In this document: positions 17,121 through 52,115 of the stretch, piece after piece
Position numbering within the stretch: the first letter of the stretch is position 1
How the letters are laid out: every line of letters begins with the position of its first letter
Assembly (NCBI GenBank): GCA_027491155.1
Contig: JAIXWR010000017.1
Location: 1 to 64,000 of the forward strand
Source of the DNA: Verrucomicrobiaceae bacterium
GTDB lineage: Bacteria; Verrucomicrobiota; Verrucomicrobiia; Verrucomicrobiales; Akkermansiaceae
Length of the DNA stretch: 64,000 bases
Reading direction: 5' to 3'
Made by a program: the position numbers and the translations under genes
The notes under the pieces: generated by a model
What the model was told of the DNA's origin: nothing
Seen by the model: the letters and a program-made list of their open reading frames with translations, nothing else
Databases searched by the model: none

Positions 17121-19508
17121 ATGAAACACAAGTTCATCACCGCCCTGATGGCGGGAACCCTGATCCACGCCGCCCAGGCCGCTCCAGGTGACCTCATTTG
17201 GTCCGATAACTTCGACCTCGGCAGCGACACCACGAACTTCGACGGTGCCTCCCTGGCGGGGCGCCTCGCCGGGCCCCTTGGAACCGCGCCGGATTGCGTG
17301 GCCCGGGCCTCCGGGATCCAGCAATGGATCACCTCGAACCAGCTCAACCTCCGCGGCGGCCGCATCCGCTTCCAGCGCTCGGCGGCCGGCCCCCGCTTCG
17401 ACTGGGCGGGCACCGCGGCCGGATCTTCCGCCGCGAACATCGCCGCCGCGGCCAACATCCTCGATGCGGGCGGCATGAAGATCTCCTTCGACTACGTGCC
17501 GACCAACAACACCAGCACCAACTGGGTGAACGTCTCCGTCGGCATGCCGTCCTCCTTCGATGGTCAGGCGATCAATTACTTCGAAACCGACTACGGGGTC
17601 CTGCTCCGTAACAACGGCGCGACCGAGAGATTCGACAACGGCTTCAACAAGGGCCCCGGAGGCAGCTTTCCCGCGACGACGACCAGCCGCCACGCCGATT
17701 ACTACTACGCGTTCTCCAGCTTCGCCAACGGCACCGAGGTCCGTTCGCGGGTGGTCGTGGACGGTATCCAGGTCGCCGCCGACACCTTCTATCTGGAGAA
17801 CAACGCCGGGGAGTTCTATTTCGTCGTGGAAGTGGGCGAAGTGGGAACCCTCGTGGACAACCTGACCGTCTCCACCATCCCCACCATCTATGACATGGCG
17901 GTGACCGGCGACGAGTTCATCTCCGGCGTCGATCCAGGAGACGCGGTCGCCACCCTTTCCGGTTCGACTTTCGCCAAAGGCCCGGAGGCATCCACCTTCG
18001 TCTTCGTCGCCGGCACCGGCGATGACGACAATGCCAAGTTTGTCATCGACGGTTCCACCATCAAGGCCGGGACCTACGATTTCACGCAGGATCCCGGAGG
18101 CACCGAGTATTTCGTTCGAGTCAAAGGCACCGGCAACGTGACGGGAGGAACGAAGGAATTCGAACATGTCTTCACGCTGATCAAGGACGACGACGCCGAT
18201 GACCTGGTGGACGACTGGGAACTCGACTTTGCCGGGAACCTGACCGCTCTGACAGGTCTCCTCGCGGGTCCCGGTCCGGGTGCCGGCACGGGCGACTTCG
18301 ACGGCGACGGACTCAGCGATCTTGCGGAATACAACCTGAGCCTCGGGGCCTTCCCGACGATCAGCCCGGTCCTCGCCGATACCGACGGGGACACCCTCAA
18401 CGACAACGTCGAACAGAATCCCGTGGCTCCGCGGCCGGTCACCAACCCGCTGATCGCGGACACCGACAAGGACGGCCTGAACGACGGCGTCGAGTCCAAC
18501 ACCGGCACCTTCGCCTCCCCGACGGACACCGGCTCCAATGCCACCGATCCGGATTCCGACGATGACGGTTCCCGCGACGGCTTCGAAGTCGCCAAGGCAA
18601 GCAATCCGGTCGACTTCTCCTCCCGGCCGGTCCTTCCTCCGGCATTCGCCATCGTCCCGCTGACCGACGACGCCAGCACCGGAATCTCGGCGAGCACGAC
18701 TTACACCCACAAGATTAGCGGCGGCGGCCCCGCCACGATCAACGGGGTCTTGCTCGAGGAGCTCAATCCGGTCTCCTCCCCGGCGAACTTCACATGGACG
18801 GTTTCGGCCGGTGCCCCGGCGGAGATCAACCCGATCACCAACGCTTCCTGGTTGCCTGCCAACGGCGGGGTGACCGGTCCCGGGCTGCTCGATCTGTTCG
18901 GCGGTTTCACCTACAACACGAACGGCAACCCGGAAGGATTCCAAACCTACACGCTCAGCGGCTTGGAAATCGGCAAGGCCTACAAGCTGAAGATCTTCGT
19001 GCGCCCCTGGGCAAACAATGTCGCCAGCTTCCGCCCGATCGACCTCCGCTTCACGAACGGGGCCACCGTCGAGGAACCTTTCGGCGGGCTTGCAACCGAC
19101 CGGCCGGGGATCGTGCTGAACAACGGCAACAACAACTCGGCGTTCTACGTCAGCTACGACTACGTGGCGGAAGCCACCGACCTGGTGATCCGCGCGCGGG
19201 TTCACGAAAGCGCGCTCCCTGCCAGCGGTTCCTTCCACCTCTACGGTCTGACCAATGAAGTCGTCCCGGACAACCCGCCCGTGGTCACCGCGGTGACCCG
19301 CGATGGAAGCGGAAACTTCATCATCGATTTCACCGGCGAGCCGAACACCACCTACAACGTGACCAAGTCCCCGGACCTGACCACGCCCTTCGGGCCGCTC
19401 ACCACCCCGCTCACGGCGACGACCAACGGCGCGGGTGTGGGTCAAGCGACGGTGCCGTCTTCCGAAGCGTCCGAGACCCGCGAATTCTACCGCATCGAAA
19501 GCCCGTGA
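17121..19508 (+). CDS. Secreted protein with thrombospondin type-3-like calcium repeats
   Basis: A 795-residue protein with a signal peptide (FITALMAGTLIHAAQA). An N-terminal beta-rich domain (about 22-265) resembles LamG or a similar jelly roll. Then come cadherin-like segments and a calcium-binding block at about 390-495 built from DFDGDGLSDLAEY, DTDGDTLNDNVE, DTDKDGLNDGVES and DSDDDGSRDGFE. The C-terminus (about 720-795; TTYNVTKSPDLTTPFGP ... EFYRIESP) is the beta-sandwich tail also recognisable in the other large secreted proteins here. No enzyme motif is visible. A calcium-stabilised surface or extracellular structural or binding protein is likely. It has its own leader region of about 200 bp and is followed by a strong hairpin at 19577. 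Confidence 0.88.
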   Translation: MKHKFITALMAGTLIHAAQAAPGDLIWSDNFDLGSDTTNFDGASLAGRLAGPLGTAPDCVARASGIQQWITSNQLNLRGGRIRFQRSAAGPRFDWAGTAAGSSAANIAAAANILDAGGMKISFDYVPTNNTSTNWVNVSVGMPSSFDGQAINYFETDYGVLLRNNGATERFDNGFNKGPGGSFPATTTSRHADYYYAFSSFANGTEVRSRVVVDGIQVAADTFYLENNAGEFYFVVEVGEVGTLVDNLTVSTIPTIYDMAVTGDEFISGVDPGDAVATLSGSTFAKGPEASTFVFVAGTGDDDNAKFVIDGSTIKAGTYDFTQDPGGTEYFVRVKGTGNVTGGTKEFEHVFTLIKDDDADDLVDDWELDFAGNLTALTGLLAGPGPGAGTGDFDGDGLSDLAEYNLSLGAFPTISPVLADTDGDTLNDNVEQNPVAPRPVTNPLIADTDKDGLNDGVESNTGTFASPTDTGSNATDPDSDDDGSRDGFEVAKASNPVDFSSRPVLPPAFAIVPLTDDASTGISASTTYTHKISGGGPATINGVLLEELNPVSSPANFTWTVSAGAPAEINPITNASWLPANGGVTGPGLLDLFGGFTYNTNGNPEGFQTYTLSGLEIGKAYKLKIFVRPWANNVASFRPIDLRFTNGATVEEPFGGLATDRPGIVLNNGNNNSAFYVSYDYVAEATDLVIRARVHESALPASGSFHLYGLTNEVVPDNPPVVTAVTRDGSGNFIIDFTGEPNTTYNVTKSPDLTTPFGPLTTPLTATTNGAGVGQATVPSSEASETREFYRIESP

Positions 19509-19608: not shown

Positions 19609-19677
19609 GGCATTTCGAGGGACTGCTTCCTGCGGCTCCTTGCCGGATCCCGTTTCCCGAGGTTTCTTCCCTTGTTC

Positions 19678-22600
19678 ATGCACGCCGCCCAACGAATCGC
19701 CTCCTGCATCCTCGCGCCGTTACTCGCCGCGGGAGTCGCGCGTGCGGACAGTCCCGATGCCGTCGTCACCATCAACGAGGTCCACTACAACCCGCCGCTC
19801 ACCCAGGACGCCGAGTGGATCGAGCTCCACAACCAGATGGCGGTCAACATCGACCTCTCGGGGTGGTCGCTGGCCGACGGGATCTCCTACACTTTTCCCA
19901 CCGGCACGGTCATTCCCGCGGGCGGCCATTTCGTGGTGGCGAAACTCCCGGCCCACGCCTCGCTGGCCGGCGTGCCGAACGTCTTCGGTCCCTTCACCGG
20001 CAATCTTTCCAACGGCGGCGAAACCGTCGACCTGCTCAGCCCCACCGGGCGGTTGATGGACCGGCTGACCTACGGCGATGCCGGCTTGTGGCCGGTCACC
20101 CCCGACGGCGCCGGAGCCACCCTGGCCAAGCGCCGCCCCGGCACCGCCGCGGAGGATCCCGCCAACTGGCGCGCCAGCCAGGCCGCGGGCGGCACGCCGG
20201 CAGGACTCAATTTCCTGTCGAACGAAGTGCCGGTGGTCCACGTCTTCACCGACGCCGACACCACCTGGCGCTTCCGCGACACCACCACCGCGCCGTCCGG
20301 ATCGTGGGCGAACCCGGGCTTCGCCGACGGCGCATGGAGCCAGGGCCAGGCACCCTTCGGTTCGACAGGTTCGAGCCCGGTCCTCGGGATCACTTCCGAC
20401 CTGGTGGAACGCTTCCGCGCCGCCGACATCACAGGCATCGCCAACGGCGGCACCTTCAGCCCGTGGAACGACACCGCCACCGGCGACGGGGTCGCGCAGA
20501 ACGCGGTCGCACCTGTTGTGACCAACAACAACCCGCAGTTCTACAACGACACCGCCAACCGCACCCCTTCCGGCCAGCCGGTCGTGGACTTCGATGGCGA
20601 CGACCAGTTCCGCACCTCCGTCTCCCCCGGCATCGCGGCGACCTCCGGCTTCGTCTACTTCATCGTCTGCCGAGCCAACGGCGCGCCGACCAATGGCAGC
20701 GTGACGAGTGGCGACGGCGACTACATCTTTGACCGTGATGCCACCGTGGGGAATCCCCTGGTATCTCTCAAGCCGGACAACAACCGCTACGGCTTCCAGA
20801 AGCGCTACGACGACGGCAGCGCTCTTGGAGGGATGGTTTCCACCACGCCGATCTCCACCACCCAGTTCCAGATCGTCGCGGTCCGCCGCAACCGGACGCT
20901 CAGCCGCTTCGAAATCTGGGTCGATGGCGTGATGGAGGCGACCACTCCGGACACGGGCGGAAACCTCACGCCACAGCCCATCGTGATCGGCAACCATGAA
21001 AACGGCGGGGTCAAGGGTTTCAACGGCGACATCGCCGAACTGCTGATCTACCGCGAGGAGCTTTCCGAATCGGATTTCCAGTCCGTCGGCGCCTACCTCG
21101 AAGGCCGCTACGGCCTCGCCACCGCCTTCCCCGATTCCGTCGCCCGGACCTCGCTCAACGCCAGCGCCTCCACCGCCTACTTCCGGAAATCCTTCACCTT
21201 CTCCGGCGATCCCGCGCGCACCACGCTTTCGCTCGACCACACCCTCGCCGACGGCGCCGTCTTCTATCTCAACGGCCAGGAAATCGCCCGCCACAACCTG
21301 CCCGCCGGCACGATCGGCCACACAACATCGGCCCTGTCCAATGTTGCCGCGCCGCAGTCCACCGGCCCGCAGCCCGTTCCCGCCGGCGCGCTGGTCAACG
21401 GCGACAACGTCCTCGCCGTCTCCGTCCACACCGGTGCCTCGGACAACACCGCCTGGTTCACCGCCAGCCTCCGCGGCGAGGAAACCCTGCCCGACCCCGA
21501 TCTTCCGCCCGCCCTCCAGATCCACGAGATCGCCGGAGCGAGCGCGACACCCTTCTTCATCGAAGTCCGTAACCCCACCGCCGCCCCCGTCTCGACCGCC
21601 GGCTTCACGCTCGAGGTCAGCGGCACGGTCAACGACAGCGACCCGCTGCCGACCGTCACGGTGCCGCCCGGCGGTCTGGTGCACTACACCAACACCCAGC
21701 TCGGCTTCCGCCCGGCCAACGGCGACAAGATCATCCTCCGCTCGCCCGCCGGCCACCCGGTCGATGCCCGCAATGCCGACCTCGTCACCCGCGGCCGCTC
21801 CGACCTCTGGCCGAACCGCTGGCTCTACCCCTCCGCCTCGACCCCCGGCACCGCGAACACCTTCAATCTCCAGCAGAACATCGTCCTCAACGAGATCTGC
21901 TACAACCCGCCCGACGTCTCGTTGGCCAGCGCCGACAAGCAGTGGATCGAACTCCACAACCGCGGGGCCGTCCCGGTCGACCTCGCCGGCTGGCGCTTCA
22001 GCTCCGGCATCGATTTCACCTTTCCCTCTCCCACGGTCCTTGCAGCGGGCGGCTACCTGCTCGTCGCGAAGTTGCCCGGCAACTTCACGCCGGCCCCCGG
22101 TGCCACGGTGCTCGGCCCTTGGTCCGGCAGCCTCTCCGGCGGTGGGGAAAGGATCACGCTGTTGGACGCCGCGGGAAATCCCGCCGACGAGGTTTCCTAT
22201 CTCGACGGCGGCCGCTGGCCCGGCGATGCCGATGCCGGCGGGTCCACCCTCGAACTCCGCGACCCGCGCGCCGACAACTCGCTGCCCGGCTCCTGGGCCG
22301 CCAGCAATGAAAGCTCCCGCCGCACCTGGCAAACCTACACCTACCGCGCCACCGCCGCCGCCAGCACCGGCCCGGACAACCAGTGGAAGGAATTCATCTT
22401 CGGCCTGCTCGACGGCGGCGACGTCCTGATCGACGACATCTCCGTGGTGGAGAATCCCGACACCTCGGCGGTGCAGATGATCTCCAACGGCAATTTCCAG
22501 TCTGGCACCACCGGCTGGCGCTTCCTCGGCAACCACCGCCACGCGCAGGTGGTCCCCGATCCCGGAAGCCCCGGCAACAACGTGCTTCATCTCAGCTCCA

Positions 22601-25395
22601 AAGGCGCCACCGAGCACATGCACAACCACGTCGAAACCACCCTGGCCGGTGGACTTTCGGTGGTGAACGGCCGGGTTTACGAAATCAGCTACCGCGCCCG
22701 CTGGCTCGGCGGATCGAACCGCCTCAACACCCGCCTCTACTTCAACCGCGTCGCCAAAACCACCGAACTCGCCCGCACCGACACGCCCGGAACTCCCGGT
22801 GCCGCGAACTCGACCGCGGTCGCCAACGCCGGCCCGGCCTTCACCGCGCTTTCGCATTCACCGGTCGTTCCGGACCCGGGCGAAGCCGTCACCATCACGA
22901 CCCGCGCCACCGACCCCGACGGCCTCGGCACCTTCACCCTGCACTATTCGGTGAATGGCGGCGCTTTCACCCCGGTGACGATGACCCCGGCCGGCGACGG
23001 CACCACCTTCACCGCGTCCGTTCCCGGCCAGTCCGCCGCCAGCGTGGTGCGCTTCCACGTCGCCGCCAGCGATGCCGCACCGGCTCCCGCTTCCTCCTTT
23101 CATCCCGCGGACGGTCCTTCGTCGCACGCACTCTATCAGGTGAACGAGGGCCTCGCCGCCACCAACGGCCTGCAGAACATCCGCATCGTCATGGACCCCG
23201 CCGACGAAGCCCTGCTCTATCAGACCAACAACCTGATGAGCAACGAGCGCCTCGGCTGCACCGTGATCTACGGCGAGCGGGAGGCCTACTACGACGTCGG
23301 TGTCCGCCTCAAAAGCAGCCAGCGCGGCCGGCCCGCACCCGCCCGGGTCGGCTTCAATCTCGGCTTCAACAGGGACCAGCTCTTCCGCGGAATCCACCGC
23401 GCCGTTGCCATCGACCGCTCCGAAGGACAGATCACCGGCTGCCAGGAGATCCTCTACGACCACATGATGTATGCCAGCGGCGGCGTGCCGGCGGAATTCA
23501 ACGACCTCTGCAAGGTCATCGCGCCCGACCCCGCCCATTCGAGCCACGCCATCCTGCAGATGGCCCGCTTCAACGACGTCTTCCTCGATTCCCAGTTCGA
23601 GAACGGCAGCGACGGCACCGGCTACGAGTACGAGCTGATCTATTATCCCACCACCACCGATGCCAACGGCTTCAAACTGCCCCAGCCCGATCTGGTTATC
23701 GGCACCGACATCACCGACCTCGGCGACGACAAGGAGCGCTACCGCTGGAACTTCCTCCTCGAGAACAACGAGGACATCGACGACTACTCGCGCGTCATCG
23801 CCCTGGGCAAGCACTTCGCCAAGACCGGCACGGCCTTTGAGACCGGTCTCGAAAGCATCATCGATGTCGACCAGTGGCTGCGTGCCACCGCCTACGCCTG
23901 TGCCAGCGGGGCGGGGGACTCCTTCTTCGCGAACGCGAACCACAACGGGATCTTCTACGCCCGGCCGGACGGGCGGATGCTGTTCTTCCCGCACGACATG
24001 GATTTCTCGTTCAGTGCCACGCGGAACATCTTCGAGAATGCCGAGCTGCAGAAGCTCGTCGCCAACGGCGCCCGCCGCCGCGCTTACCTCGGCCACCTGC
24101 ACCACATCTGCACCACGGTCTTCAACCAGTCCTACATGTCGGCCTGGACGAGCCACTACGGCAGCCTGCTGCCCGGTGAGAACTTCACCGGCCACCTGAG
24201 TTACATCAACAGCCGCTCGAACTACATCCTCGGCGCGATCAACACCGACACTCCGACGGTGGCCTTTGCCATCACCACCAACGGCGGTGCCAATTTCTCG
24301 ACCGGCACCAGTCCGGTCACCCTTTCCGGGCAAGGCTGGGTGAACATCCGCGAGATCCGCCTCGCAGGCTCCACGGTACCGCTCGCCAGCACCTGGACTT
24401 CGGTCAATACCTGGCAGGTCGCCGTGCCCCTCACCTTCGGGCCGAACGCGATCACCTTGGAAGCCGTCGATTTCACCGGCGCTGTGGTCGGCACCGACAG
24501 CATCACCGTCACCAATACCGGCGGGATCGAGCCGCCCCAGCCATCCACCCTGGTTGTCTCGGAAATCTACTACAACCCTCCCGGCAATCTCGAGACGACC
24601 GAATACGTCGAGCTCATGAACACCTCCGCCGCGACGCTCGACCTGAGCAACGTGAACTTCACCGCCGGTGTGACCTTCGCCTTTCCCGGCGGCACCCTGC
24701 TCGGCCCCGGCGGCCGGATTCTCGTCGTCAAGGACCAGGCCGCGTTCACGGCGGCCTTCGGCACCGGACTGCCGGTCGCCGGGGTGTTCCCGAACAGCCT
24801 CAACAACGCCGGCGAGCGCCTCGAACTCCGTCGTGCCGACGGTGGCATCCTCCACTCTTTCATCTTCAGCGACCTACCGCCCTGGCCGGTCGAGGCGGAT
24901 GGCGACGGCTATTCGCTGGTGCTTGCCGATCCCCATTCGAACCCCGACCACGGCAACCCCCTGAGCTGGCGCGCCAGCCTTGTCGCGAGCGGCGGCAGCC
25001 CCGGCACCGGCGACAGCCAGTCCTACGCCGCTTGGAAAGCCTCCAACGGCAACCATGCCGATGGCGACGACATCGACGGCGACGGCTTCACCACCCGCGA
25101 GGAATACTTCCTCGGCGGCAACCCGCTGGTCGCCGAGCCGTCCTTGAAGCCGACCTTCCAGATTGAACCCGGCGGGACTTTCCTCATGTCCGTCACCCGG
25201 CGTGTCACCGCCGAGAATGCCGCGGTTCTTCCCGAAATCTCCACCGGCCTCGCGAGCTGGGCACCGGATCCGACCGCGGTGTTTCTCAGCAACACCCGGC
25301 AGCCAGGCAGTCCCGCCGTCGATCGCCTGACCTTCCGTCTCAGCCCGCCGGTTGGGGCCCCGCGCTTCTTCGCCCGCTTTGCCTTCGGGCCGTGA
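19678..25395 (+). CDS. Giant secreted lamin-tail / CotH-kinase-fold protein
   Basis: A 1905-residue protein with a signal peptide (RIASCILAPLLAAGVARA). Lamin-tail domains recur near residues 25-135 (TINEVHYNPP ... AEWIELHN), 735-850 (VLNEICYNPP ... QWIELHN) and 1622-1720 (VSEIYYNPPG ... EYVELMN), with a diverged one near 615-720. A LamG-like domain lies at about 250-480. A CotH domain spans about 1165-1530, with GVRLKSSQRGR, the core DHMMYASGG and the DxD-type site FFPHDMDFSF (about 1436). CotH folds are protein kinase-like and phosphorylate spore coat proteins in Bacillus; here a secreted kinase or adhesin is possible. The C-terminus (about 1785-1905) has DGDDIDGDGFTTREEYFLGG plus a beta-sandwich tail. 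ATG 19678 is used rather than TTG 19672. Confidence 0.88.
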   Translation: MHAAQRIASCILAPLLAAGVARADSPDAVVTINEVHYNPPLTQDAEWIELHNQMAVNIDLSGWSLADGISYTFPTGTVIPAGGHFVVAKLPAHASLAGVPNVFGPFTGNLSNGGETVDLLSPTGRLMDRLTYGDAGLWPVTPDGAGATLAKRRPGTAAEDPANWRASQAAGGTPAGLNFLSNEVPVVHVFTDADTTWRFRDTTTAPSGSWANPGFADGAWSQGQAPFGSTGSSPVLGITSDLVERFRAADITGIANGGTFSPWNDTATGDGVAQNAVAPVVTNNNPQFYNDTANRTPSGQPVVDFDGDDQFRTSVSPGIAATSGFVYFIVCRANGAPTNGSVTSGDGDYIFDRDATVGNPLVSLKPDNNRYGFQKRYDDGSALGGMVSTTPISTTQFQIVAVRRNRTLSRFEIWVDGVMEATTPDTGGNLTPQPIVIGNHENGGVKGFNGDIAELLIYREELSESDFQSVGAYLEGRYGLATAFPDSVARTSLNASASTAYFRKSFTFSGDPARTTLSLDHTLADGAVFYLNGQEIARHNLPAGTIGHTTSALSNVAAPQSTGPQPVPAGALVNGDNVLAVSVHTGASDNTAWFTASLRGEETLPDPDLPPALQIHEIAGASATPFFIEVRNPTAAPVSTAGFTLEVSGTVNDSDPLPTVTVPPGGLVHYTNTQLGFRPANGDKIILRSPAGHPVDARNADLVTRGRSDLWPNRWLYPSASTPGTANTFNLQQNIVLNEICYNPPDVSLASADKQWIELHNRGAVPVDLAGWRFSSGIDFTFPSPTVLAAGGYLLVAKLPGNFTPAPGATVLGPWSGSLSGGGERITLLDAAGNPADEVSYLDGGRWPGDADAGGSTLELRDPRADNSLPGSWAASNESSRRTWQTYTYRATAAASTGPDNQWKEFIFGLLDGGDVLIDDISVVENPDTSAVQMISNGNFQSGTTGWRFLGNHRHAQVVPDPGSPGNNVLHLSSKGATEHMHNHVETTLAGGLSVVNGRVYEISYRARWLGGSNRLNTRLYFNRVAKTTELARTDTPGTPGAANSTAVANAGPAFTALSHSPVVPDPGEAVTITTRATDPDGLGTFTLHYSVNGGAFTPVTMTPAGDGTTFTASVPGQSAASVVRFHVAASDAAPAPASSFHPADGPSSHALYQVNEGLAATNGLQNIRIVMDPADEALLYQTNNLMSNERLGCTVIYGEREAYYDVGVRLKSSQRGRPAPARVGFNLGFNRDQLFRGIHRAVAIDRSEGQITGCQEILYDHMMYASGGVPAEFNDLCKVIAPDPAHSSHAILQMARFNDVFLDSQFENGSDGTGYEYELIYYPTTTDANGFKLPQPDLVIGTDITDLGDDKERYRWNFLLENNEDIDDYSRVIALGKHFAKTGTAFETGLESIIDVDQWLRATAYACASGAGDSFFANANHNGIFYARPDGRMLFFPHDMDFSFSATRNIFENAELQKLVANGARRRAYLGHLHHICTTVFNQSYMSAWTSHYGSLLPGENFTGHLSYINSRSNYILGAINTDTPTVAFAITTNGGANFSTGTSPVTLSGQGWVNIREIRLAGSTVPLASTWTSVNTWQVAVPLTFGPNAITLEAVDFTGAVVGTDSITVTNTGGIEPPQPSTLVVSEIYYNPPGNLETTEYVELMNTSAATLDLSNVNFTAGVTFAFPGGTLLGPGGRILVVKDQAAFTAAFGTGLPVAGVFPNSLNNAGERLELRRADGGILHSFIFSDLPPWPVEADGDGYSLVLADPHSNPDHGNPLSWRASLVASGGSPGTGDSQSYAAWKASNGNHADGDDIDGDGFTTREEYFLGGNPLVAEPSLKPTFQIEPGGTFLMSVTRRVTAENAAVLPEISTGLASWAPDPTAVFLSNTRQPGSPAVDRLTFRLSPPVGAPRFFARFAFGP

Positions 25396-30539: not shown

Positions 30540-30630
30540 TCGTCGAAGGGCGCGCACCCTAGTCGCCACCACCCCGGGTGCAAGCCGGGTCTTGCTTCCG
30601 CCCGCAAAACCACCGCATCTGGCGGTCGCG

Positions 30631-31317: not shown

Positions 31318-31377
31318 GATAGCCGTTCCAATTCCGCCTCGACCCGGCGGCGGTGCGCGGGTTAAAAGGCGGGTGCT

Positions 31378-38800: not shown

Positions 38801-41800
38801 CGAGGCGGAGGGTGGCGCTGCCGTCGTTGAAGATCCGGTAGCCGGCGCCGGGGGTGAGGGTCATGACGACGGTCTCGGTGTCTTCCGCGAGGCTGTCGTT
38901 GAGGACGGGGATGTTCACCGTGACCTCGTTCGCGGAGGCGGCGGAGAGGGTGACGCTGCCGCTGGGCGCGGTGAAGTCGCTGCCGGCGGTGGCGGTGCCG
39001 GAGAGGGTGTAATTCACGGTGATGTTGCCGGTGGCGGAGCCGAGGGCGCGGATGATGAAATTGCCGGTGGTGGACGGTTCCGCGGCGGTGGTGTTGGCGC
39101 GGACGGAGATCATCGGCAGGTCGTCGTTGTCGGCGATGTTCACCGTGGCGGCGTAGGCGGTGCCGAGCTGATAGACGCCGTTGTAGGTGGTCAGGTTGAA
39201 GGTGACGGTTTCCGGGTCTCCTTCGCCGAGGTCGTCGTCGTAGGGCGTGATGACGACCGGCACGCTGGTCGCGCCGGCGGGGATGACGATCTGGCCGGTG
39301 AGCGCCTGGTAGTCGGTGCCGTGGAGGGCGCTGCCGGCGACGCCGTAGTAAACGGTGAGCGGGGCGGTGGTCGGGCCGGTGCGGGTGACCAGCAGCAGGC
39401 CGGGGTCGCGGTTGGCCTCGCTGGCGCTGGCGTCGGAGGCGGTGACGGTGACCACGGGCACGTCGTCGTCGGTGATCGTCACCGTGGCGGTTTGGGCGGT
39501 GCTGTCGCGGATGTAGGCGGCGTTGCTGGAGATCGTGAGCGTGGCGTCCTCGAGGCCTTCGGCGAGGGAGTCGTTGATCGCGCCGACGGCGAGGATGGCG
39601 GATGCCTGGCCTGCGGGGATCTGGACGGTGGCGGGGAGCGAGGTGTAGTCGCTGCCGTTCGCGGCGGTGCCGCTCCAGGCAACGGCGACGTTCAGAGCGG
39701 CGGCGGTGGAGCCGGTGCGGGTGATCCGGAAGCTGCCGGTGTCGCCGGGGGTTTCCGAGGCGTAGAGGTCGGTGGCGGCGGCGCTGACGACCGGCAGGGT
39801 CGTGTCGTCGTCGGCGATGGTGAGGATGGCGACGCCGCTACTACGAACCTGGTAGGTGCCGACGGAGAGCTGGAGCTTCACGGTTTCCGGGCCTTCCTGG
39901 AGCGCGTCGTTCACGGCCGCGACGTTGACCGTGAGGGAAGATTGGCCGGCGGGGATGGTGAACTTGTAGAGGGAGCCGTTGGCGACGTAATCGGGGGAGA
40001 AGGTGTAGTCGGTGGTTTTGGCGGCGAGGCCGGTGACCGGCGCGACGTTTACGTCGAGGGCGGCGGTGGTGTCGCCGCTGCGGGTGAGGACGAAGCTGCC
40101 CGCGGCGCCGCCTTCAGCGGCATCGGTGGCGGCGATGGTGACTTCGGTCACGCTGGTGGCGGTCCAGTCGGCGGCGGGGACGGTGGAGTTGACGACGGCG
40201 GTGATCGGATTGGTGAAGGACGGCGTGAAGGTGTAGCCGGCGAGGGTGGCGGTGAGGGTGCGGGCACCGGCGGTGAGGTCGCTGATGGCGTAGTCGCCGT
40301 TGCTGTCGGTGAAGCAGTACTTGCCGTTGTCGCTGGTCACGCGGACATCGGCGAGGGGCTGGCCGTCCGCGGTGATGCGGCCGGTGACGATGCCGCGGCC
40401 GTGGTTGCCGACATTGACGACGACGTGGCGGCGGGTGCTGCCGCCCTTCATGTCGGAGACGGTGCAGAGCACGGTCATCTGGTCGGCGGTGGTGAAGCTG
40501 CGGGTGAAGACCGGGGTGTTGGTGCTGACGACGCCGTCGTTGAAGTCCCAGTGGTAGGCGAGCGTGTCGTTATCGGGGTCCGCGGCGGTGGCGGTGAAGG
40601 TGATGCTGCCGCCGGTGGCGATGGTGGTGGCGGAGGCGGCGAGGGAGAGCGTCGGCGGCTGGTTGCCGGGGAAGGGCCCGCGCTGGTAGGCGACGTCCAT
40701 CGAGGGCGGGGTGGTCGCGTTTTTCGAGAGGACGGTGAAGTGGATGTCGGACTCGAAGTCGCTGAAGGTGCGGCCGACGGTGATGCCGGCATCGCCCTTG
40801 CCGCCGGCGCTGCCGGGAGTGGTGTCGATGAGGTGGCCGCAGTTCGAGCCGAGGCCGTCGATGATCATCAGGACGGAGTTGGCGAGGGCGGTGTTGTAGG
40901 CCGGATGGTATTCGAGGTAGAAGCGGCGCTGGGCGTCCTTTTCGACGCGGAGGGCGTAGCGTTTTCCGGTCTCGATCTGGGGTTGGTCGTAGGCGTGGAT
41001 CCGATAGACGCCGCTGGCCGCGGGCGAGGCGGAGGGGCGGTGGACGTAAGCGTCGTCGAGCCAGCCGAGGTCGCGCTTGCTCTTGGAATTGTAGTGGGCC
41101 GCGAAGCCGCCGCCGCCGCCCATCACGTCGAAGCCGTTGCCGTATTCCTGGTTGCTGCCGACACCGATGGCCGAACCGTCGCTGGTCTGCCAGAAGTTCG
41201 CGTGGTTGCGGCCGAGCGAGTGGCCGGCCTCGTGGTTGAGGACGTCCATGCCGTTCCAGGTGACCCAGACGCGGTCGCCGCCGCCCCAGGAGATGCCGCT
41301 GAGGCGCGGGCCGCCGTTGACGCGGACGATGGTGCAGTTGAACTGGGTCGGGTCGTAGCCGAGCTTGCGGGCTTCGGCGCGGGCGTGGCTGTGGACCAGG
41401 CCGAGGCCGTCGACCTCGCTGTCCTTGGCGATGTACCAGGCCTGCGAGTAGGGCAGGGTGATGACCGGGGTGACGGTGGAGGTGGTGGTCATCCGGCCGA
41501 AGCTGTTTTCCAGGAAGAAGCGCGAGACGTCGCGCATGTCGGAGTGGGCGCGGTCCTCAGTGTTGGGGGCCTTGAGCTGGTCGGGGTAGGTGATGCGGAT
41601 GTAGAGGCAGCGGAAATTGCCGATCGCCCGGGAGGAGGTGCCGGGGTGGGTGTCGTAGAAGAAGCCCGCGCCGGGGTTGCCGGTGGCCATCAGGAACTGG
41701 CTGCCTTCCTCCTCGAGGACGCGGACGTGGGAGCCGTCGCAGAGGCGGATGATCCGTTCGCCGATTTCGACCGTGGGGGTTTCGTCGGTGACCGGTTCCT

Positions 41801-43871: not shown

Positions 43872-45251
43872 ATGACACCCACCCTTGTTCCGTTTGCCCG
43901 TTCCGCCCGTCCGCTCCTGTTCCAAGTTCCCGCGCTTGCCCTGATATCGGCGGCGGCGCTGCGGGCGGAGATCGTCGAGTTCGACCTCGACCAGGTGCCG
44001 ATGCCCACTTCCGGTTCGGTCGCCCTTGCCCTGCCCTACAACGAGCAGGGGCTCCGTCTGGAGTCTTCGGTCTCGTCGTGTTTCGTGGTGGGACCGATCA
44101 GCAATGCCTTCACCGGGGTGAAGGCATTCACACCCGCGACGCTTTCTTCCGGTCAGACGGTCACCATGCAGCTCTACAGTCCGGCCGGCCGGGTTTTCGC
44201 GGTGCGCTCGGCGACGATCCACCCGTATACCAGCGGGCAGGCGGTGAACGTCGGGTTCACCAGATTCTTCAACGGCAACGGGTCGACCCAGGGCCACTCG
44301 ACCGGCACCGCGCTGGCCGGCACGACGGTGACCTTCAATTCGAGCTTCAACCGGGTGGGCAACCTGAGCTGGCAGATGACTTCAACGGGCGGGATCTACC
44401 AGCGTTTCCAGATCAGCCGGATCGTGGTGGAGTTCGACGGGACCCTGACCACCTCGTCCTTCACCGTGTCCGAGGCGGCGGGGACGGCTGAGGTCCCGAT
44501 CCAACTGGACTCCCCGCGCACCACGGACACGACGGTGAACTGGGAAGTGACGGCGCTGACGGCGAGCCAGCCCGGGGACTTCACGTTTCCCGGCGGGAGT
44601 GCCACGGGAACGGTGACCATTCCCGCGGGGCAGACGGTCGGTTTCGTGAACGTGCCGATCGTCAATGACAGCAGCAACGAAAGCCCGGAGACCTTCCGGG
44701 TCCGCTACACGACGACCGCGACCGGGGTCTTGTTTCCCGGGGGCAACGGCTTCCTCGACGCGACGGTGACGATCGCCAGCGACGACGGCGTGACGACCTT
44801 CCCCAACTGGATGACGGCGCACGGACTGACCAGCACCGCGGCGGATCCCGATGCGGACCCGAACGGCGACGGGATTTCCAACATCGAGTGCTGGCTGTTC
44901 CGCCTGAATCCCGCGGGTCCGAATCCGCCGGCCTGGCTGGCGCGGCGGGCGGTGATGAGCGGCGGAAGCAACGATCCGGGGCTGACGTTCTTTGTTCCGG
45001 TGCCGCTGCCTTCGGACGTGCGGATCATCCTTTCGCAGAGCGCGGACCTGGGTTCCTGGACGGAGCAGACGCGGCGCACGGGCTTCGGGACGGGATCCCT
45101 CTGGACCGGCAGCGGTTCGGGCCGGGTGCTGGAGACCAGCAGCCCGGCGGGGCGGACGATCACCCTGCGTGCCAGCGTGCCGGTGGGGCGGCGGACGAAG
45201 GTGTTCCTGAGAAACACCTACGAGCACGTGTCCGGCGGCGGTGCGTCCTGA
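43872..45251 (+). CDS. Secreted protein with a single Calx-beta domain
   Basis: A 459-residue protein with a signal peptide (FQVPALALISAAALRAE). The N-terminal half (about 35-195) is a beta-rich domain of unknown type (SGSVALALPYNEQGLRLES). A Calx-beta domain follows (about 200-305; FTVSEAAGTAEVPIQLD, GTVTIPAGQTVGFVNVPIVND, ESPETFRV). The C-terminal module (about 320-459) has DADPNGDGISNIECWLFRLNP and the beta-sandwich tail (SADLGSWTEQTR), shared with the giant proteins nearby. It probably works outside the cell; no enzyme motif is present. ATG 43872 is used. Its stop lies 3 bp from the stop of the convergent giant gene at 45255. Confidence 0.87.
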   Translation: MTPTLVPFARSARPLLFQVPALALISAAALRAEIVEFDLDQVPMPTSGSVALALPYNEQGLRLESSVSSCFVVGPISNAFTGVKAFTPATLSSGQTVTMQLYSPAGRVFAVRSATIHPYTSGQAVNVGFTRFFNGNGSTQGHSTGTALAGTTVTFNSSFNRVGNLSWQMTSTGGIYQRFQISRIVVEFDGTLTTSSFTVSEAAGTAEVPIQLDSPRTTDTTVNWEVTALTASQPGDFTFPGGSATGTVTIPAGQTVGFVNVPIVNDSSNESPETFRVRYTTTATGVLFPGGNGFLDATVTIASDDGVTTFPNWMTAHGLTSTAADPDADPNGDGISNIECWLFRLNPAGPNPPAWLARRAVMSGGSNDPGLTFFVPVPLPSDVRIILSQSADLGSWTEQTRRTGFGTGSLWTGSGSGRVLETSSPAGRTITLRASVPVGRRTKVFLRNTYEHVSGGGAS

Positions 45252-45254
45252 GCT

Positions 45255-48200
45255 TCAGGGCTGCTCGACGCGGAGGCGCAGGAAGCTGCGGCCGGGCTGG
45301 ACGGGCAGGCGGCGGGTGACGGTTTCGGTGATGCCGTCGGGATTCGGCGCCGCGCTGCCGCCCGGAGCCCAGGAGGAAGTGGCGTCGGTCCAGGAGCCGA
45401 GCCCGCCGGAGAGTTCCTCGGCGTAGGTCAGTCCGTGGGTGCCCAGCAGGCGCCGGTAGCGGAAGACCAGGTGCGGCGAGCCGTTGAAGCTTTCGATCTG
45501 CCCGGACGGCAGGCCTTCGCGGCTGGGGACGGTGTGGTCCATGCCGAAGGCGTATTCGAGCAGGTTTTCCACGCCGTCGAGGTCCGGGTCGCCGGTCGGG
45601 CCGTTGATGGGGGCGTTGATTTCGGACAGCGGGAAGCGCAGCGCCTGCCAGCGGGCGAAGCCGTTGTCCGCGGGGATGCGGATGCCGGTGGAGGTGTCGC
45701 CGGTGGCGAGGCCCGTGGTCAGGTCGTGGCCTTCCGGGATGCTGAAGACGGAGACGATCTGGCCGGTCAGGCGGTCGCGTTGCTCGAAGCGGCGGACGCC
45801 GTCGGGCAGCAGGTTCGGCACGATGGCGCCCCAGCGGGTGGCCTGGCCGACGACTTCGGATTGGTAGAAGGGCGCGTAGGTGGCATCGACCGCCGCGCCG
45901 CTGGCCTCGACCGGGGTGGCGGCGAGCGGCGGGGTGAGACCGGCGGGGTCGGAGTAGAGGACCATGAAGTTCCGCGCGGTGGCGGCGGAGTCGCCGTGGA
46001 GGGCGGAGCCTTGGCCGCTGGCGGTGCCGAAGGCGATGACCTGCGAGCCGGCGGTGGCGTTGAGGGAGTGGAAGGGCACGTCGCCGCCGGCGCCGTCGTT
46101 GAGCAGGAGGCGCGTGCGGACGGTGTTGCCCGGGGTGAAGCGGAGGTTGCCGGTGGGCTCGAGAACGAACCAGCCGGTGTGGCTGCCGTCGGGCCCGGTG
46201 GTGAATTCGCCGTGGCGCGTGTTGAGGTCGCCGGGCAGGAAGCGCGGGGATTCCGTGCTGCGGACGAAGGCGCCGCTGTTTCCGGTGGCGAAGATCATGT
46301 TGCCCGCGCCTTCCGCCTCGGGGAGGTCGCTGGAGGTGACCATCTGGTTGGCGTAGCGGTAGGTGGCGGAGGGCAGCAGGCCGTCGATGCGCAGCAGGCT
46401 GGCGTGCGGGACGCGGCGGTCGTTCACCGGGTGGCTGCCCTGGATGAAGGCGGGCACGACCAGCTCCGCGAGGCCGGCGACGCGGGTGGGGAAGGGGTAG
46501 CTGGTGCCCGGAAGGCCGGCGCTGGCGGCGGTCAGGGTGAAGGCGCCGGGGGACGGGAAGACGAGGTTGTCGAAGGTGGCGATGCCGTTGACGGCGTTGC
46601 GGGTGACGGTGCCGCCGAGCATGCCGGGCTGGCCGGCGATGGCGAGGGTGACGGGTCCGTTGAAGTTTTCCGCGATGACGCCGTTGCGGCCGAGGGCCTG
46701 GACGGCGACCGCCGATGCGATTCTCCCGGTCTGGGCGGCGGCGGGTGCAGTGGCGATGGCGAGCGTTTCGGCGGCCACGGGGCCGGCGGTCACCTCGATG
46801 CCGTCCAGCCGGAGCTGTGCGCGGGCGCCGCTGGTGCCACTACGGAAATAGTACTTCCAGCGGAGCTCGACCAGCTGCTGGTTGTCGGCGGCGGCCGGCA
46901 GCGAGACGGGGCCGAGGGAGGTCGAGTGGCCTGCATTGGCGTTGCGGACGTATTCCACGGGCGCGCCGCCGGGGCCGGGGACATCGACGAAGGAAGTGGT
47001 GTTGCCGATGCGGTACTGGAGGCGGATGCCGTAGTCGCGTTCGTTCGGCGCGACGGTGCCGCCGGTCCAGCGGACGCGGATGTCCTGGCTGCCGCGGGTG
47101 TCGAGCGCGAGCACGGCGGCCCCGACGAAGCCTGCGCCGGGCGTGAGCTGGGGGCTGCCGGTGTTGATGAAGCCGATGCCCTGCAGGCCGAGGCCGTTGA
47201 TGCGGCTGCGGTCGGTGAGATTGAACGGGAGGGTCCAGGGCAGGTCCATCGGCGCGGCGAGGTCCGGATCCTCGCGGTCGCTTTGGAAGAAGCGCATGTT
47301 CGGCGGCGCGGTGCCGGCCGGTTCGTTCGCGTTCCAGCGGTTCAGGGCGTAGGGACCGGCGGTGGCGAGCGGGTGGGTGACGTTGAAATCGGCGGCCGTC
47401 AGGGCGCTCCAGGTGGTGCCAGAGCGGAGGCGCGCCTTGAGGGTGGAATTGGCGGTGAGCACGACGGATCCGCCGGAGGCGATGGTGAGCGCGGCGGGGG
47501 AGAGGGCGCCGCCGGGCAGGCGGGGATCGGAGCCGTCGAGCGTGTAGTAAATCGTGCCGCTTCCGGCGCTGATGGAGACCGACTGGCCGTTCGACACGCT
47601 GCCGCCGTGCTGGCTGAGGACCGGGGCGTCGAGGGTCGGGTAGAAGCCGCGGGTGCGGAGGAGACCGAGGAGATTGGTGGTGCGTTGCGGGAAGAGTCCG
47701 GTGCGGATGGTTTGCGCGGCGTTCTCCCAGGACGTCGGGGTCTGGTAGCCCCAGCGCGCGCATTCGGCGATCAGGCTGTCCTGGATTTCGGTCATCCGCA
47801 GGTTGAGCCGGGCGAGATTGCGGTTCGGGGTCAGCGCGCCGTTGTTGAAGAAGTGCCGGTGGATGCGGTCGGCGAGGAGGATCTTGAAGTCCGGGTGCCC
47901 CTCGGTGACCAGCGCGCCGAAGAGGCCGCCGGGGCCGGTGTTGGTGGTGGTGTCCAGGGTCAGCGCGGAGGTGCGGAGGAAGCCGTCGCCATCCGCGATC
48001 CAGAATTTGAAGCCGGTGCCGGGCGCGATGGGACCGGCGGCGCGGAACTCGGCCTCGGAGTTGCCGTAGAACCAGATCAGCATGAAGTCGATGAGGTGGG
48101 AGACATCGAGCCGGTCCTTCACCGCGACGTAGGAATTGCGGTCGGCGCGGACGTTTTCCCACGAGTCGCGGTGTTCGGGATCGGGCGTGCCGTTGACGAA

Positions 48201-51200
48201 GGCGTTGCCGACGTTGTCGTTGCCGCGGACGATCAGGTAGTCGTCGTCGGACCCGCCGAGGTAGCCGGCGAGGAAATCGTCGTCGAGCCGCTCGTGGGCG
48301 TTGTACTGGCCCCAGTAGGTGCCGTTGATGTAGACGTGGACGAAGCGGCCGTGGGGATTGAGGCTGCCCATTTCGAGCATGGTGTCCTCGATGAAGCGGT
48401 TGGCCATGTAGAAGCCGCGCTGGTTCATGTCCTGGTTGCCGGCGGAGAGGTCGAGGGTGTCGATCTCGTCGAGCGCCGCCATGCCGCGGTCGAAGCCGCG
48501 GAACAGGGGCGACTCTAGGCGTTTCGCGCCGTATTCGGAGCGGAAGTGGACCCGGTAGCTCTTCTTGGCGAAGAGGGTGTAGGAGCCGCCGAAGCGGGCG
48601 AGGCCGGCATTGACCTGCAGGGGCGCGGAGCCGTCGGGCAGGAAGACTTCGATCGAAGCGGGGCGTTCGATGTAGTCGTCGGGCAGGACCGGGACGCTGA
48701 GGCAGACGGTGGGGATCTGGGTGAGGCTGGACTGGAGGCGCGGGGCGAGCGCGCCCTGGGTGTAGGTCGTGTTCATGAGCGGCGAGCTCATGACGCTACT
48801 ACGGAAGACGTAGGTGTGGGTGACGACGGGCGGGGAGAGGTAGCCGGTGCGGCGGACGGTGGCGCGGACGCCGAGGCTGCCGTTCACGGCGATGGGCGCG
48901 GTGTAGGGAATGGCGGGTTCGGTGCCGTCGGTGGAGTAGAGGATCTGCGCCGCGGGATCGGGGTGGGAGAGGACCAGCGAGAAGGGCGTGTCGTGGAAGC
49001 CGCGGCTGTGGCTGAAAGCGGGTGCTTGCAGCCAGCCGGCGAGCGGGGTGGAGAGGTTGTGGCGGCGGGGGCTGGGGGTGAGGAAGCCGGGGCTGCCGTC
49101 GAGGGCGCGGCCGTAGGCGAGGTCCTCGGTCTGCGCGGGGTAGCTGGCGATCGAATCGATCACGCTGCCGTTGGGCGCGGCGAGGACGACGGATTCGCCG
49201 GCGGAGGAGAGGCTGAAGGAGGCGTGGAGGTTGCCGGCGGGATCGAGCGGCGCGGGATTGCCCGATGCGAAGACCACGAGGTGGCCGTTGGCGGGGATGG
49301 AGGTGCCGGCGGGGAAGAGCCATTTCAGGGGAACGGCGGGATCGTCGCTGAGGCCGTGGCCGCCGAGGTCCAGCGGCGTGGCGTTCCGGTTGTGGATCTC
49401 GATCCAGTCGGGCTCCTGGCCGTAGCCGTCGGCCAGCGAGAAGCGGCTGGAGGCGACGAACTCGCTGATCCTCGGCGGGAGGAGCTGGCCGTTGACGGTG
49501 ACGGTCGTCGCACGGGTGACCGTGCCGTTCGGTCCTTCGCCGACGAGGAGGTATTCGGTGGTGGCGGCGGGGCTGACGGCGAGCGAGCCGCTGCCCTGGG
49601 TGTTGGTTTGGGCGCCGACCGAGCCGATGGCGGGGTGGAGCGAGAGCTGGTGGAGATCGCTCTCCTGCCAGGCGAGGGTGGACGATTGTCCGGCGGTGAT
49701 CTGGGAGGGCGTGGCGGTGAAGCCGGCGAGGCCGGTGTCGCCGAGCGGGAGTCCGAAGGCCTGCACCTCGCGGAGGCGGATCCACCACTCGGTGCCGCCG
49801 GTGGCGGAGGTGCGCTGCTTGTTTTCCAGGCCGACGCGGACGTAGCGGGCGGCGAGCGGGCCGGGCAGGGCGATGTCGAAGGTGGCGGAGGTGCCGTCGA
49901 GCTTCTGCGAGAAGATCGACTCGTGGTTCTCGTCGTAAAGCCGCACGGTGGCGTTGGTCAGCCGGCGCTGGTGGTCGGCGTTGTCGAAGGCGACGACGCG
50001 GATGCTGTGGAGGGCGCGCTCCTGGCCGAGGTCGGTTTCCCAGTAGTAGTCGACGGTGGCGGTGGTGGATTCGGTGAAAGTCGCGTGGTTGCCGTCGTTG
50101 GCGAGCGAGGGGGAGGGCAAGGAGTCGGCCAGCCGGACCATGTAGCACGGGGTGCCCAGCGCGTAGTTGGTGCCGGTGAAAACGGAGACGCCGGCGAGCG
50201 AGACGACGCGGTCGCCGTAGCCGTTGAGCGCGCCGTTTTCGAGGCCGATGCGCAGGTAGCGGGCATCGGCGGTGCCGGCCGGGATGTCGAAGCCCCAGGT
50301 GCCGCCGGCGCCGGGGTGGGAGACGGTGGTGGTGGCCAGGGTGTTCGAGTTGCCGTCGAGCAACCGGACGGTGAGGCCGCTGAGGCGCGGGGAGAAGGCG
50401 CTGTTCGGCGCGACCAGTTCGACGCGGCGGACCGGGCGGGCGCGGTCGAGGGTGAGCAGCCAGTGGCTGTCGGCGATGCTCTGGGTTTCGCTGACGGTCG
50501 CGGCATTGCCATCGATCGCGAGGGCGGCGGTGTTGGTGCCGGTGGTGGAGGACTGGGTGGCGGTGGCGATGGCGGCGAGGTTGAGCGGGCCGACGGCGGG
50601 CGAGGGATCGCCGCGGACACGCCAGTCGGCGAGGGCGATGCGGTGGTCGCCCCGGCCGTTGGTCTGGCCGGGAGGGAGGTCGAGGCGGATCAGGCGGGCG
50701 TCGATGCCGGGCGGCAGGAAGACGGCCCAGGTGCCGCCGGGCTCGACCGAGGTGATGGTGGTTTCAAAGAGCAGCTGGTCGCGCAGGCCGAAGACGCGCA
50801 GGCGGGTGCCGTTGAGGATGCCGGCGTAGTTGGTCCCGGCGGGTGCCACGAGGTCGATGCGGCTGGTGCGGATGTGGCGGTCGAGCTCGAGCTCCAGGAA
50901 GGAGCCCGGGGTGTTGGCGGTTTCGGTGAAGGTCGAGGGATTGCCGTCGATGGTGGGAGCCGTGGCGCTGGCCAGGGTGGGCAGGTCGAGCTGCGGGTGG
51001 GCGGGTGTGGTGGCGGGATCGGCGGTGTCGAAGGTCCAGGTGTAGGTGCCGGTGCGGCCGGCCTGGTCGGTGGCTTCGGCGCGGGCGGTGTAGAAGCGGT
51101 TGGCGAGCAGGGTGGCGGAGGAGGTGACGGTGCGGCTGCTGGTGGTGCCGCCGATGCTGAGGGTCGGCGTGACGTCCGCGCCGTTGAGGAAAAGCCGGAT

Positions 51201-52115
51201 ATTGCCGGGGGCGAGGGTGTTCGGGGAGACGGTGCTGACGGTGAAGCCGATGGGGCTGCCGACGGGCTGGAAGGTGCTTCCCGGGGACGGGGTCGCGTTG
51301 CTGAAGGAGGGCACGCGGTCGATGGGCGCGACGACGATGTTCACCGGCTTGGTGCCGGCGGCGAGGGCACCGATCTGGGCGGAATCGAGGGCGGTGGCGA
51401 AGATCGCTAGATCGTCGATCCTGCCTTTGAGCACGTTGGTTGCGGAATCGAGGGTCCGGCCGAGGAGGACTTCGGTCCAATCGCCGGTGAGGGCGGCGGC
51501 ACCGGAGGCCACGGAAGCGGCGAGCTGGCCGTTGATCCAGATCTGTTTGGCACCGCCGTTCTTGATTAGGGCGATGTGGGTCCATTGCTGCCAGTTGAGG
51601 CCGGGGATCGAGCTGCCGGCGACGGTCAGGCGCTGGGAGGGAACGGCACAGCAGCCGGAATGGTCGTAATAGAGCGTGCCGTCGCCCCACGGGAGGTGGC
51701 CTTGGAAGCCGCGGTTGCCGGTGGCGGCGGAGCGGAACCAGATGCTGGAGGAATTGCCGGTGGTGGCGTCCCAGCGTTGCCAGAAGACGACGCTGAGCCG
51801 GTCGCCGGAGAGGTTGCGGGAATTCAGCAGCCCCATGAAGGCGGCGTTGGTGACTCGGGCGGCGCTGTTGCCGGCGGTGCCGAAATTGAGCGAGCGGTCG
51901 CCTGTTTGGCCGCTGCGGCCGGCGGCGTTGGCGCTGAAGGCGGCGTTGCCTTCGAACACCACCGGCGTGCCGGTGAGGACATCGGCGGACTGGGTCGGCG
52001 ACGCCGTGCTGTCGAAATCCCAGATGCCCAGGGCATCGGCGGGATCGACGGGCGTGTAGGACTGGGCGGTCGTCGGCAGCAGGGCGGTCGATCCGAGGAG
52101 GACGACGCCGAGCAT
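45255..52115 (-). CDS. Giant secreted LamG / discoidin-like / lamin-tail / CotH protein
   Basis: A 2286-residue protein from ATG 52115 (MLGVVLLGSTALLPTTAQ, signal peptide); an in-frame TTG at 52151 is an alternative start. Domains in order: LamG (about 15-235; LALFKN-like IALIKNGGAKQIWINGQ), an Ig/SbsA-like domain (about 260-355), three coagulation factor 5/8-like discoidin domains (about 360-800; DGNPSTFTET, DGNAATVSET, DGNHATFTES), a lamin-tail domain (about 870-980; ISEFVASSRFSLADGYGQEPDWIEIHN is split over this range), a chitobiase-type domain (ILYSTDGTEPA), a CotH region (about 1090-1500; FAKKSYRVHFRSEYGAKRL, YINGTYWGQYNAHER, FWIADGDGFL), a second YYTLDGSDPR domain and the C-terminal module with DPDLDGVENLLEYAFG. 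It probably binds or modifies cell-surface glycans or proteins. Confidence 0.87.
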   Translation of the reverse strand: MLGVVLLGSTALLPTTAQSYTPVDPADALGIWDFDSTASPTQSADVLTGTPVVFEGNAAFSANAAGRSGQTGDRSLNFGTAGNSAARVTNAAFMGLLNSRNLSGDRLSVVFWQRWDATTGNSSSIWFRSAATGNRGFQGHLPWGDGTLYYDHSGCCAVPSQRLTVAGSSIPGLNWQQWTHIALIKNGGAKQIWINGQLAASVASGAAALTGDWTEVLLGRTLDSATNVLKGRIDDLAIFATALDSAQIGALAAGTKPVNIVVAPIDRVPSFSNATPSPGSTFQPVGSPIGFTVSTVSPNTLAPGNIRLFLNGADVTPTLSIGGTTSSRTVTSSATLLANRFYTARAEATDQAGRTGTYTWTFDTADPATTPAHPQLDLPTLASATAPTIDGNPSTFTETANTPGSFLELELDRHIRTSRIDLVAPAGTNYAGILNGTRLRVFGLRDQLLFETTITSVEPGGTWAVFLPPGIDARLIRLDLPPGQTNGRGDHRIALADWRVRGDPSPAVGPLNLAAIATATQSSTTGTNTAALAIDGNAATVSETQSIADSHWLLTLDRARPVRRVELVAPNSAFSPRLSGLTVRLLDGNSNTLATTTVSHPGAGGTWGFDIPAGTADARYLRIGLENGALNGYGDRVVSLAGVSVFTGTNYALGTPCYMVRLADSLPSPSLANDGNHATFTESTTATVDYYWETDLGQERALHSIRVVAFDNADHQRRLTNATVRLYDENHESIFSQKLDGTSATFDIALPGPLAARYVRVGLENKQRTSATGGTEWWIRLREVQAFGLPLGDTGLAGFTATPSQITAGQSSTLAWQESDLHQLSLHPAIGSVGAQTNTQGSGSLAVSPAATTEYLLVGEGPNGTVTRATTVTVNGQLLPPRISEFVASSRFSLADGYGQEPDWIEIHNRNATPLDLGGHGLSDDPAVPLKWLFPAGTSIPANGHLVVFASGNPAPLDPAGNLHASFSLSSAGESVVLAAPNGSVIDSIASYPAQTEDLAYGRALDGSPGFLTPSPRRHNLSTPLAGWLQAPAFSHSRGFHDTPFSLVLSHPDPAAQILYSTDGTEPAIPYTAPIAVNGSLGVRATVRRTGYLSPPVVTHTYVFRSSVMSSPLMNTTYTQGALAPRLQSSLTQIPTVCLSVPVLPDDYIERPASIEVFLPDGSAPLQVNAGLARFGGSYTLFAKKSYRVHFRSEYGAKRLESPLFRGFDRGMAALDEIDTLDLSAGNQDMNQRGFYMANRFIEDTMLEMGSLNPHGRFVHVYINGTYWGQYNAHERLDDDFLAGYLGGSDDDYLIVRGNDNVGNAFVNGTPDPEHRDSWENVRADRNSYVAVKDRLDVSHLIDFMLIWFYGNSEAEFRAAGPIAPGTGFKFWIADGDGFLRTSALTLDTTTNTGPGGLFGALVTEGHPDFKILLADRIHRHFFNNGALTPNRNLARLNLRMTEIQDSLIAECARWGYQTPTSWENAAQTIRTGLFPQRTTNLLGLLRTRGFYPTLDAPVLSQHGGSVSNGQSVSISAGSGTIYYTLDGSDPRLPGGALSPAALTIASGGSVVLTANSTLKARLRSGTTWSALTAADFNVTHPLATAGPYALNRWNANEPAGTAPPNMRFFQSDREDPDLAAPMDLPWTLPFNLTDRSRINGLGLQGIGFINTGSPQLTPGAGFVGAAVLALDTRGSQDIRVRWTGGTVAPNERDYGIRLQYRIGNTTSFVDVPGPGGAPVEYVRNANAGHSTSLGPVSLPAAADNQQLVELRWKYYFRSGTSGARAQLRLDGIEVTAGPVAAETLAIATAPAAAQTGRIASAVAVQALGRNGVIAENFNGPVTLAIAGQPGMLGGTVTRNAVNGIATFDNLVFPSPGAFTLTAASAGLPGTSYPFPTRVAGLAELVVPAFIQGSHPVNDRRVPHASLLRIDGLLPSATYRYANQMVTSSDLPEAEGAGNMIFATGNSGAFVRSTESPRFLPGDLNTRHGEFTTGPDGSHTGWFVLEPTGNLRFTPGNTVRTRLLLNDGAGGDVPFHSLNATAGSQVIAFGTASGQGSALHGDSAATARNFMVLYSDPAGLTPPLAATPVEASGAAVDATYAPFYQSEVVGQATRWGAIVPNLLPDGVRRFEQRDRLTGQIVSVFSIPEGHDLTTGLATGDTSTGIRIPADNGFARWQALRFPLSEINAPINGPTGDPDLDGVENLLEYAFGMDHTVPSREGLPSGQIESFNGSPHLVFRYRRLLGTHGLTYAEELSGGLGSWTDATSSWAPGGSAAPNPDGITETVTRRLPVQPGRSFLRLRVEQP

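Follow-up and report, generated by a model that had tools for sequence, protein, structure and literature searches.

About 100 predicted exported proteins of many kinds in one bacterium have in common a small C-terminal domain, the tail, which sequence comparison and structure prediction indicate to be folded. Four of these proteins are encoded in the window, the 64,000-nucleotide stretch of DNA analyzed here. We propose, with a probability of roughly 0.42, that the tail is a portable module that would determine where exported proteins end up, most likely through non-covalent attachment to a shared component of the cell surface or extracellular matrix. It would then be an alternative to the PEP-CTERM/exosortase tag that the same genome places on other proteins. 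We infer all three elements of this proposal, namely calcium binding by a loop in the tail, a partner common to the tails, and retention as the end result.

The tail is approximately 125 to 140 residues long and shows the same order in the four window proteins (19678, 35835, 43872, and 45255): a helix, an EF-hand-like loop, a second helix, and an Ig-like sandwich. Its consensus consists of a Trp-bearing helix, a loop D.D.DG..N..E, a second helix resembling EYALG, a sandwich containing Y.VE.S..L..W, and, near the stop codon, a last strand R.F.RL.V. The Phe (95/97) and Arg (87/97) of this last strand are the most conserved residues of the sandwich. The profile used for the searches, A2, has 30 rows, all of them tails of the window's own genome, with a mean column identity of only 29%; its seeds include the tails of 19678, 35835, and 45255 but not that of 43872. 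The relevant features of the window are the following.

17121..19508, + strand: protein with a sandwich-only C-terminal end and, apart from it, TSP3-like DxDxDG repeats (from the translation)
19257..19505, + strand: sandwich-only C-terminal module of this protein, ending in FYRIESP (hhalign to A2: probability 91, E = 1.1e-6, sandwich half only, with a three-row alignment assembled by eye on the 17121 side)
19672..25395, + strand: LTD/LamG/CotH protein with a tail (from the translation and family matches)
25018..25392, + strand: tail of the 19672/19678 protein, 93.5 bits (A2 seed); EF-hand-like loop at about 25069-25104, counted by hand
35835..42569, - strand: Calx-beta/PKD protein with a tail; also a weak M6 metalloprotease match of 28.1 bits, below the cut-off
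35838..36266, - strand: tail of the 35835 protein, 107.6 bits (A2 seed); loop at about 36156-36191, counted by hand; pLDDT 94.9
43872..45251, + strand: Calx-beta protein with a tail and a signal-peptide-like start at 43872
44796..45248, + strand: tail of the 43872 protein, 50.3 bits (not a seed); loop without Glu at position 12
45255..52295, - strand: F5/F8C/LTD/CotH protein with a tail and a signal-peptide-like start inside the first 70 residues
45258..45665, - strand: tail of the 45255 protein, 122.4 bits (A2 seed); loop at about 45555-45590, counted by hand; pLDDT 91.1

The original prediction that 19678, 35835, 43872, and 45255 share a C-terminal module was borne out, given that a single profile matches all four. 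A calcium-loop-like element had been described in each of them; the motifs are present, but the loop of 43872 is imperfect, with Cys instead of Glu at residue 12. The 17121 protein had been read as carrying the sandwich part after separate calcium repeats, which agrees with the profile alignment of its C-terminal end. This protein gave no A2 match at E ≤ 1, and the sole other own-genome matches to its C-terminal end at E ≤ 0.5 were two A2 tails (E = 0.03 and 0.09). Its TSP3_bac match scored 13.7 bits, under the cut-off of 25 bits.

Other features of the window were observed around these genes. They include a histidine kinase (HisKA_3) with a LamG domain (800-3808, +) and a fusion of 3-keto-disaccharide hydrolase and cytochrome c (9465-16913, +), followed by two genes that, by eye, resemble a pair of DUF1549/DUF1553 and DUF1501 genes. 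Another protein (26484-27776, +), in which an IS200-like transposase domain (Y1_Tnp) was matched, is, we presume, perhaps of the REP-associated kind. The cumulative GC skew reaches its minimum at about 31000-33000, where the main coding strand seems, by eye, to turn from + to -. Between tail-bearing genes lies a rhomboid-family intramembrane protease (30466-31317, +; PF01694, E = 2.8e-21). Rhombosortases process another C-terminal tag; since the tails have no membrane helix, a link to this rhomboid is a passing thought.

AlphaFold modeled the tail of 45255 as one compact domain with six strands (pLDDT 91.1) and, from a deeper alignment, that of 35835 with seven strands (pLDDT 94.9, pTM 0.88). 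The predicted order in both models is helix, loop, helix, and sandwich. Foldseek returned generic Ig folds only, with best E values of 9e-3 and 2.8e-4 (antibody domains in the second case), and VIA returned generic Ig folds with Z at most 7.5; among the matches listed for the two models by either program, none was a specific structural relative of the tail. A sequence search of solved structures gave nothing under E = 0.2. The tail is not covered by any family of Pfam or NCBIfam: in a search of both with 30 tails at E ≤ 1, matches were scattered, and no family was matched by more than 3 tails. One tail queried in each of the plasmid and phage collections found no match, and no account of the tail was found in the consulted parts of the literature (including PMC4960237, PMC3048395, and PMC10957091). 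The generic fold and the very diverged sequence are points in favor of a different explanation, in which the tail is a plain structural or stabilizing end domain that was spread by duplication and 3'-end shuffling and has no role in location. We consider this explanation unlikely, for reasons that follow from the position and distribution of the tail.

Queried alone, the 45255 tail found 69 places in its own genome at E ≤ 1. With A2, for which the best 150 of 305 candidates were scored, at least 149 places were found at E ≤ 1, and the 139 with E < 0.01 were taken forward. Counting by profile per genome and taxon, as the original prediction had suggested, was extended to the phylum. The window's genome and 28 relatives all contain the tail (29/29 at E ≤ 0.01), with 2 to at least 149 matches each. 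In a survey of 288 genomes drawn evenly across the phylum, in which at most the best 15 candidates per genome were scored, 149 were positive at E ≤ 1e-6. A pattern scan of a genome collection with NLLEYA[LF]G[TGM], which favors intact loops, yielded 370 stretches, 283 of them confirmed as relatives. The best 80 of these 283 places, referred to here as named loci, all come from records labeled Verrucomicrobia (subgroups included), Opitutia, Akkermansia, Chthoniobacter, Pontiella, Kiritimatiellales, or the PVC group.

At 40 bits or more, the own genome has 101 matches in 100 distinct proteins, one tandem pair being counted once. The match ends within 10 residues of the stop codon in 92/101 and at 11 to 40 residues from it in 5/101. 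This position is found in 30/30 seeds, in 62/71 non-seed matches, and in 31/38 matches of the 40- to 60-bit class. In the named loci, no more than 10 residues separate the tail domain from the stop in 96/103 cases. The module is therefore not found equally at internal positions, and this strong C-terminal bias speaks against a plain structural end.

The remaining four matches at 40 bits or more are one first copy of a tandem (C23:250818, preceding C23:250392), one match that covers the first half of a tail reaching the stop (C35:113748), and two modules at internal positions with other domains after them (C24:94740 and C35:137665). Below 40 bits there are a second tandem pair (C4:136902, preceding C4:136491), a third internal module (C31:67148), and two loop-only halves within one long protein (C20:84953 and C20:87038). 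Six tail domains of the named loci lie more than 40 residues from the stop (L174, L175, L203, L235, L227, and L232); those of L174 and L175 are first copies of tandem tails, and L227 and L232 share a further 71-residue end. Genuine internal copies are the three own-genome modules and those of L203, L227, and L232. These internal copies weigh against the proposed role and are a point for the plain structural end. Tandem tails, seen in two own proteins and two named ORFs, would fit a binding domain.

The carriers of the tail are varied and look exported. By a simple home-made rule, a signal-peptide-like start was called in 91/100 tail proteins versus 20/53 ORFs of the same stretches that lack the tail (p = 5e-12), and 7 of these 91 have a lipobox-like site. 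The regions upstream of the tail were surveyed as 99 N-terminal and 87 tail-proximal pieces. Among the matches listed, PATR repeats occurred on 35/87 tail-proximal and 13/99 N-terminal pieces, and LTD on 8 of each kind; LamG, CotH, sulfatase, GH18, subtilase (S8), M10, M66, and GDSL lipase had one to seven members each. The NCBIfam choice-of-anchor types D, Q, and Z and GloVer were each found on one or two tail carriers. Judging by their name, the choice-of-anchor families would have differing anchors in other settings; here these domains are carriers, not the anchor, and their presence is a further point against a plain structural end. Unrelated N-terminal domains with the same tail, as originally described, were thus recovered across many families, although part of this spread is gene duplication, given that many carriers have PATR or LTD domains in common. 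Together, the C-terminal position, the varied exported carriers, and the many copies per genome give the tail the distribution of a sorting or anchoring tag.

The same position, export-like starts, and diversity of carriers, together with the conserved Phe and Arg of the last strand, would also suit a secretion signal for an outer-membrane export machine, with type II secretion or another machine as the translocon. We hold this to be less probable still than a plain structural end. Matches to GspD-type secretins at E ≤ 1e-5 were found in 48/48 tail-rich genomes (at least 10 tails) but in 29/32 tail-free genomes as well, so that they do not discriminate; the GspD model's own cut-off was passed by 21/80 genomes. 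The type II secretin was rejected as a discriminating partner because it is present nearly everywhere. SprA was found in 0/80 genomes, which is uninformative since control genomes were equally silent. Type IX secretion substrates are varied exported proteins that end in a conserved Ig-like domain (TIGR04183/PF18962), a likeness to the tail, whose sandwich differs in being preceded by an EF-hand-like loop. Both models were presumably present in the libraries searched. Pfam and NCBIfam searches with 30 tails at E ≤ 1 reported none of the type IX C-terminal families, which counts against a secretion signal and led us to reject the tail as a domain of this kind. Internal and tandem copies are, moreover, awkward for a terminal signal.

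The loop of the tail resembles those of EF-hand, dockerin, and TSP3_bac (PF18884) proteins in having D.D.DG..N..E between two helices, and differs in being a single loop fused to a sandwich. Pfam calcium-loop families were not reported for 30 tails at E ≤ 1. A type I dockerin was dismissed on this ground and because the tail has one loop instead of two, and TSP3_bac was dismissed for want of a match among the same 30 tails. In 98 well-covered own tails, the ligands at positions 1, 3, 5, and 12 are acceptable in 82 and those at 1, 3, and 12 in 84. The losses comprise six tails in which position 1, position 3, or both are lost together with 12, seven with 12 only, and one with 3 only; loss at 1 or 3 is tied to loss at 12 (p = 1e-5, in related sequences). 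This joint loss suggests that the intact loops do bind calcium. An intact loop was also seen in 98/101 tails of the named loci, which says little given that the scan pattern itself favors intact loops. In one genus, probably Akkermansia (g11; L141-L167), 24 of the 26 tails examined, out of 27 found, read like PAGDG..NL.KYATG; in these 24, positions 1 and 3 no longer hold a ligand and position 12 is Lys, and the last strand, approximately RRFLRLKVTR, is kept. Calcium therefore appears to be dispensable for the role of the tail. The loss of ligands in some tails is also a point for a plain structural end.

The closest parallel to the proposed role is the PEP-CTERM/exosortase system (TIGR02595, PF09721), which, like the tail, has many copies per genome, a signal peptide, varied carriers, and a C-terminal position, as outlined in the consulted part of Haft 2006 (PMC1569441). 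The PEP-CTERM signal is described there as a short stretch that combines a PEP motif with a membrane helix and a basic cluster; the tail, unlike it, is a predicted folded domain that has none of these three elements. A [VI]PEP motif in the last 45 residues was found in 1/100 tail proteins, with no hydrophobic stretch after it, and hydropathy of at least 1.6 in a 15-residue window in 1/100 tails versus 8/8 PEP-CTERM ends. The tail is therefore ruled out as a PEP-CTERM signal. A sortase substrate of the LPXTG type was likewise rejected, LP.T[GA] in the last 60 residues occurring in 1/100, just before the last strand and with no helix. The original prediction saw no PEP-CTERM or LPXTG signal, which is right for the five C-terminal ends of the window and does not extend to the genome, where eight proteins have PEP-CTERM ends.

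These eight are PATR proteins (L251, L252, L254-L256, L258, L259, and L262). The best 150 of 393 candidates of the PATR search were scored and gave, by hand tally, 56 distinct frames: 43 with the tail (four of them at just 25-39 bits), 8 with canonical PEP-CTERM ends, 2 with sandwich-only ends as judged by eye, 2 running off the contig, and 1 with a tail that is broken, on a short contig. Each of the 53 readable ends thus bears one of three modules. This alternation supports, as the strongest evidence from sequence, a tail that does the same kind of job as PEP-CTERM, and it argues against a plain structural end. As a separate observation, L260 (C37) and L261 (C22) are short contigs that end, by eye, in near-identical PATR protein sequence, and C22 also carries a tail broken after the loop; these ends are either repeat-collapsed contig ends or recent duplicates.

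The window's genome has one exosortase match. Exosortase (PF09721) was tested in 96 of 149 tail-bearing and 64 of 139 tail-free genomes, chosen by hand, and was found in 94/96 versus 30/64 (p = 9e-15, kinship ignored) and in 48/48 tail-rich genomes. The two tail-bearing genomes without it are G140, with two tails, rated 100% complete and in 1 contig, and G308, with one weak tail (E = 7.7e-7) and fragmented into 120 contigs; these two genomes speak against a dependence of the tail on exosortase. Within g11, exosortase occurred in 10/12 genomes with versus 5/10 without the tail, a difference that is not significant (p = 0.17). The link may reflect lineage or lifestyle, and the co-occurrence is compatible with a shared matrix setting.

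CotH proteins served as a comparison. Among 40 CotH ORFs from 20 chosen genomes of the phylum, 39 have a visible stop and 10 have the tail; PEP-CTERM, as an alternative end on these carriers, was not seen in the 39 readable ends, a point against the proposed role. Five ORFs of family f9 (L274-L278) share a different C-terminal module, NDDW...GAF.L..DAA.L.TL.PG.YTA.V.G...G..L.EIYEV, and their genomes have 0, 1, or 5 tails. Several other CotH ends are sandwich-only, by eye, and small CotH proteins have no end module. The end module on the same enzyme thus varies with lineage; the different f9 end and the bare small proteins are points for a plain structural end.

The original prediction of a secretion or anchoring tag stands in part: the C-terminal bias, the varied exported carriers, and the alternation with PEP-CTERM agree with it, and the internal copies and a calcium loop that is not always kept do not. 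The tandem and internal copies, the lack of a membrane helix, and the tolerated loss of the calcium site tilt the balance toward a module for non-covalent binding and retention, which we place above both a plain structural end and a secretion signal. A wider proposal, that Verrucomicrobiota would have their own C-terminal sorting or surface-display system beside PEP-CTERM/exosortase, in which a calcium-stabilized Ig-like tail is read by a translocon or surface receptor, seems doubtful to us; in lineages rich in tails, such a system would comprise at least 100 tail proteins per genome. Should the tail have a role in sorting or anchoring, a single HMM would pick out a large share of the exported machinery of tail-rich genomes (sulfatases, proteases, CotH, and PATR proteins), and the question would be raised of which component recognizes the tail. 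Whatever its role, some 100 proteins encoded by this genome gain a shared domain label that is absent from Pfam and NCBIfam.
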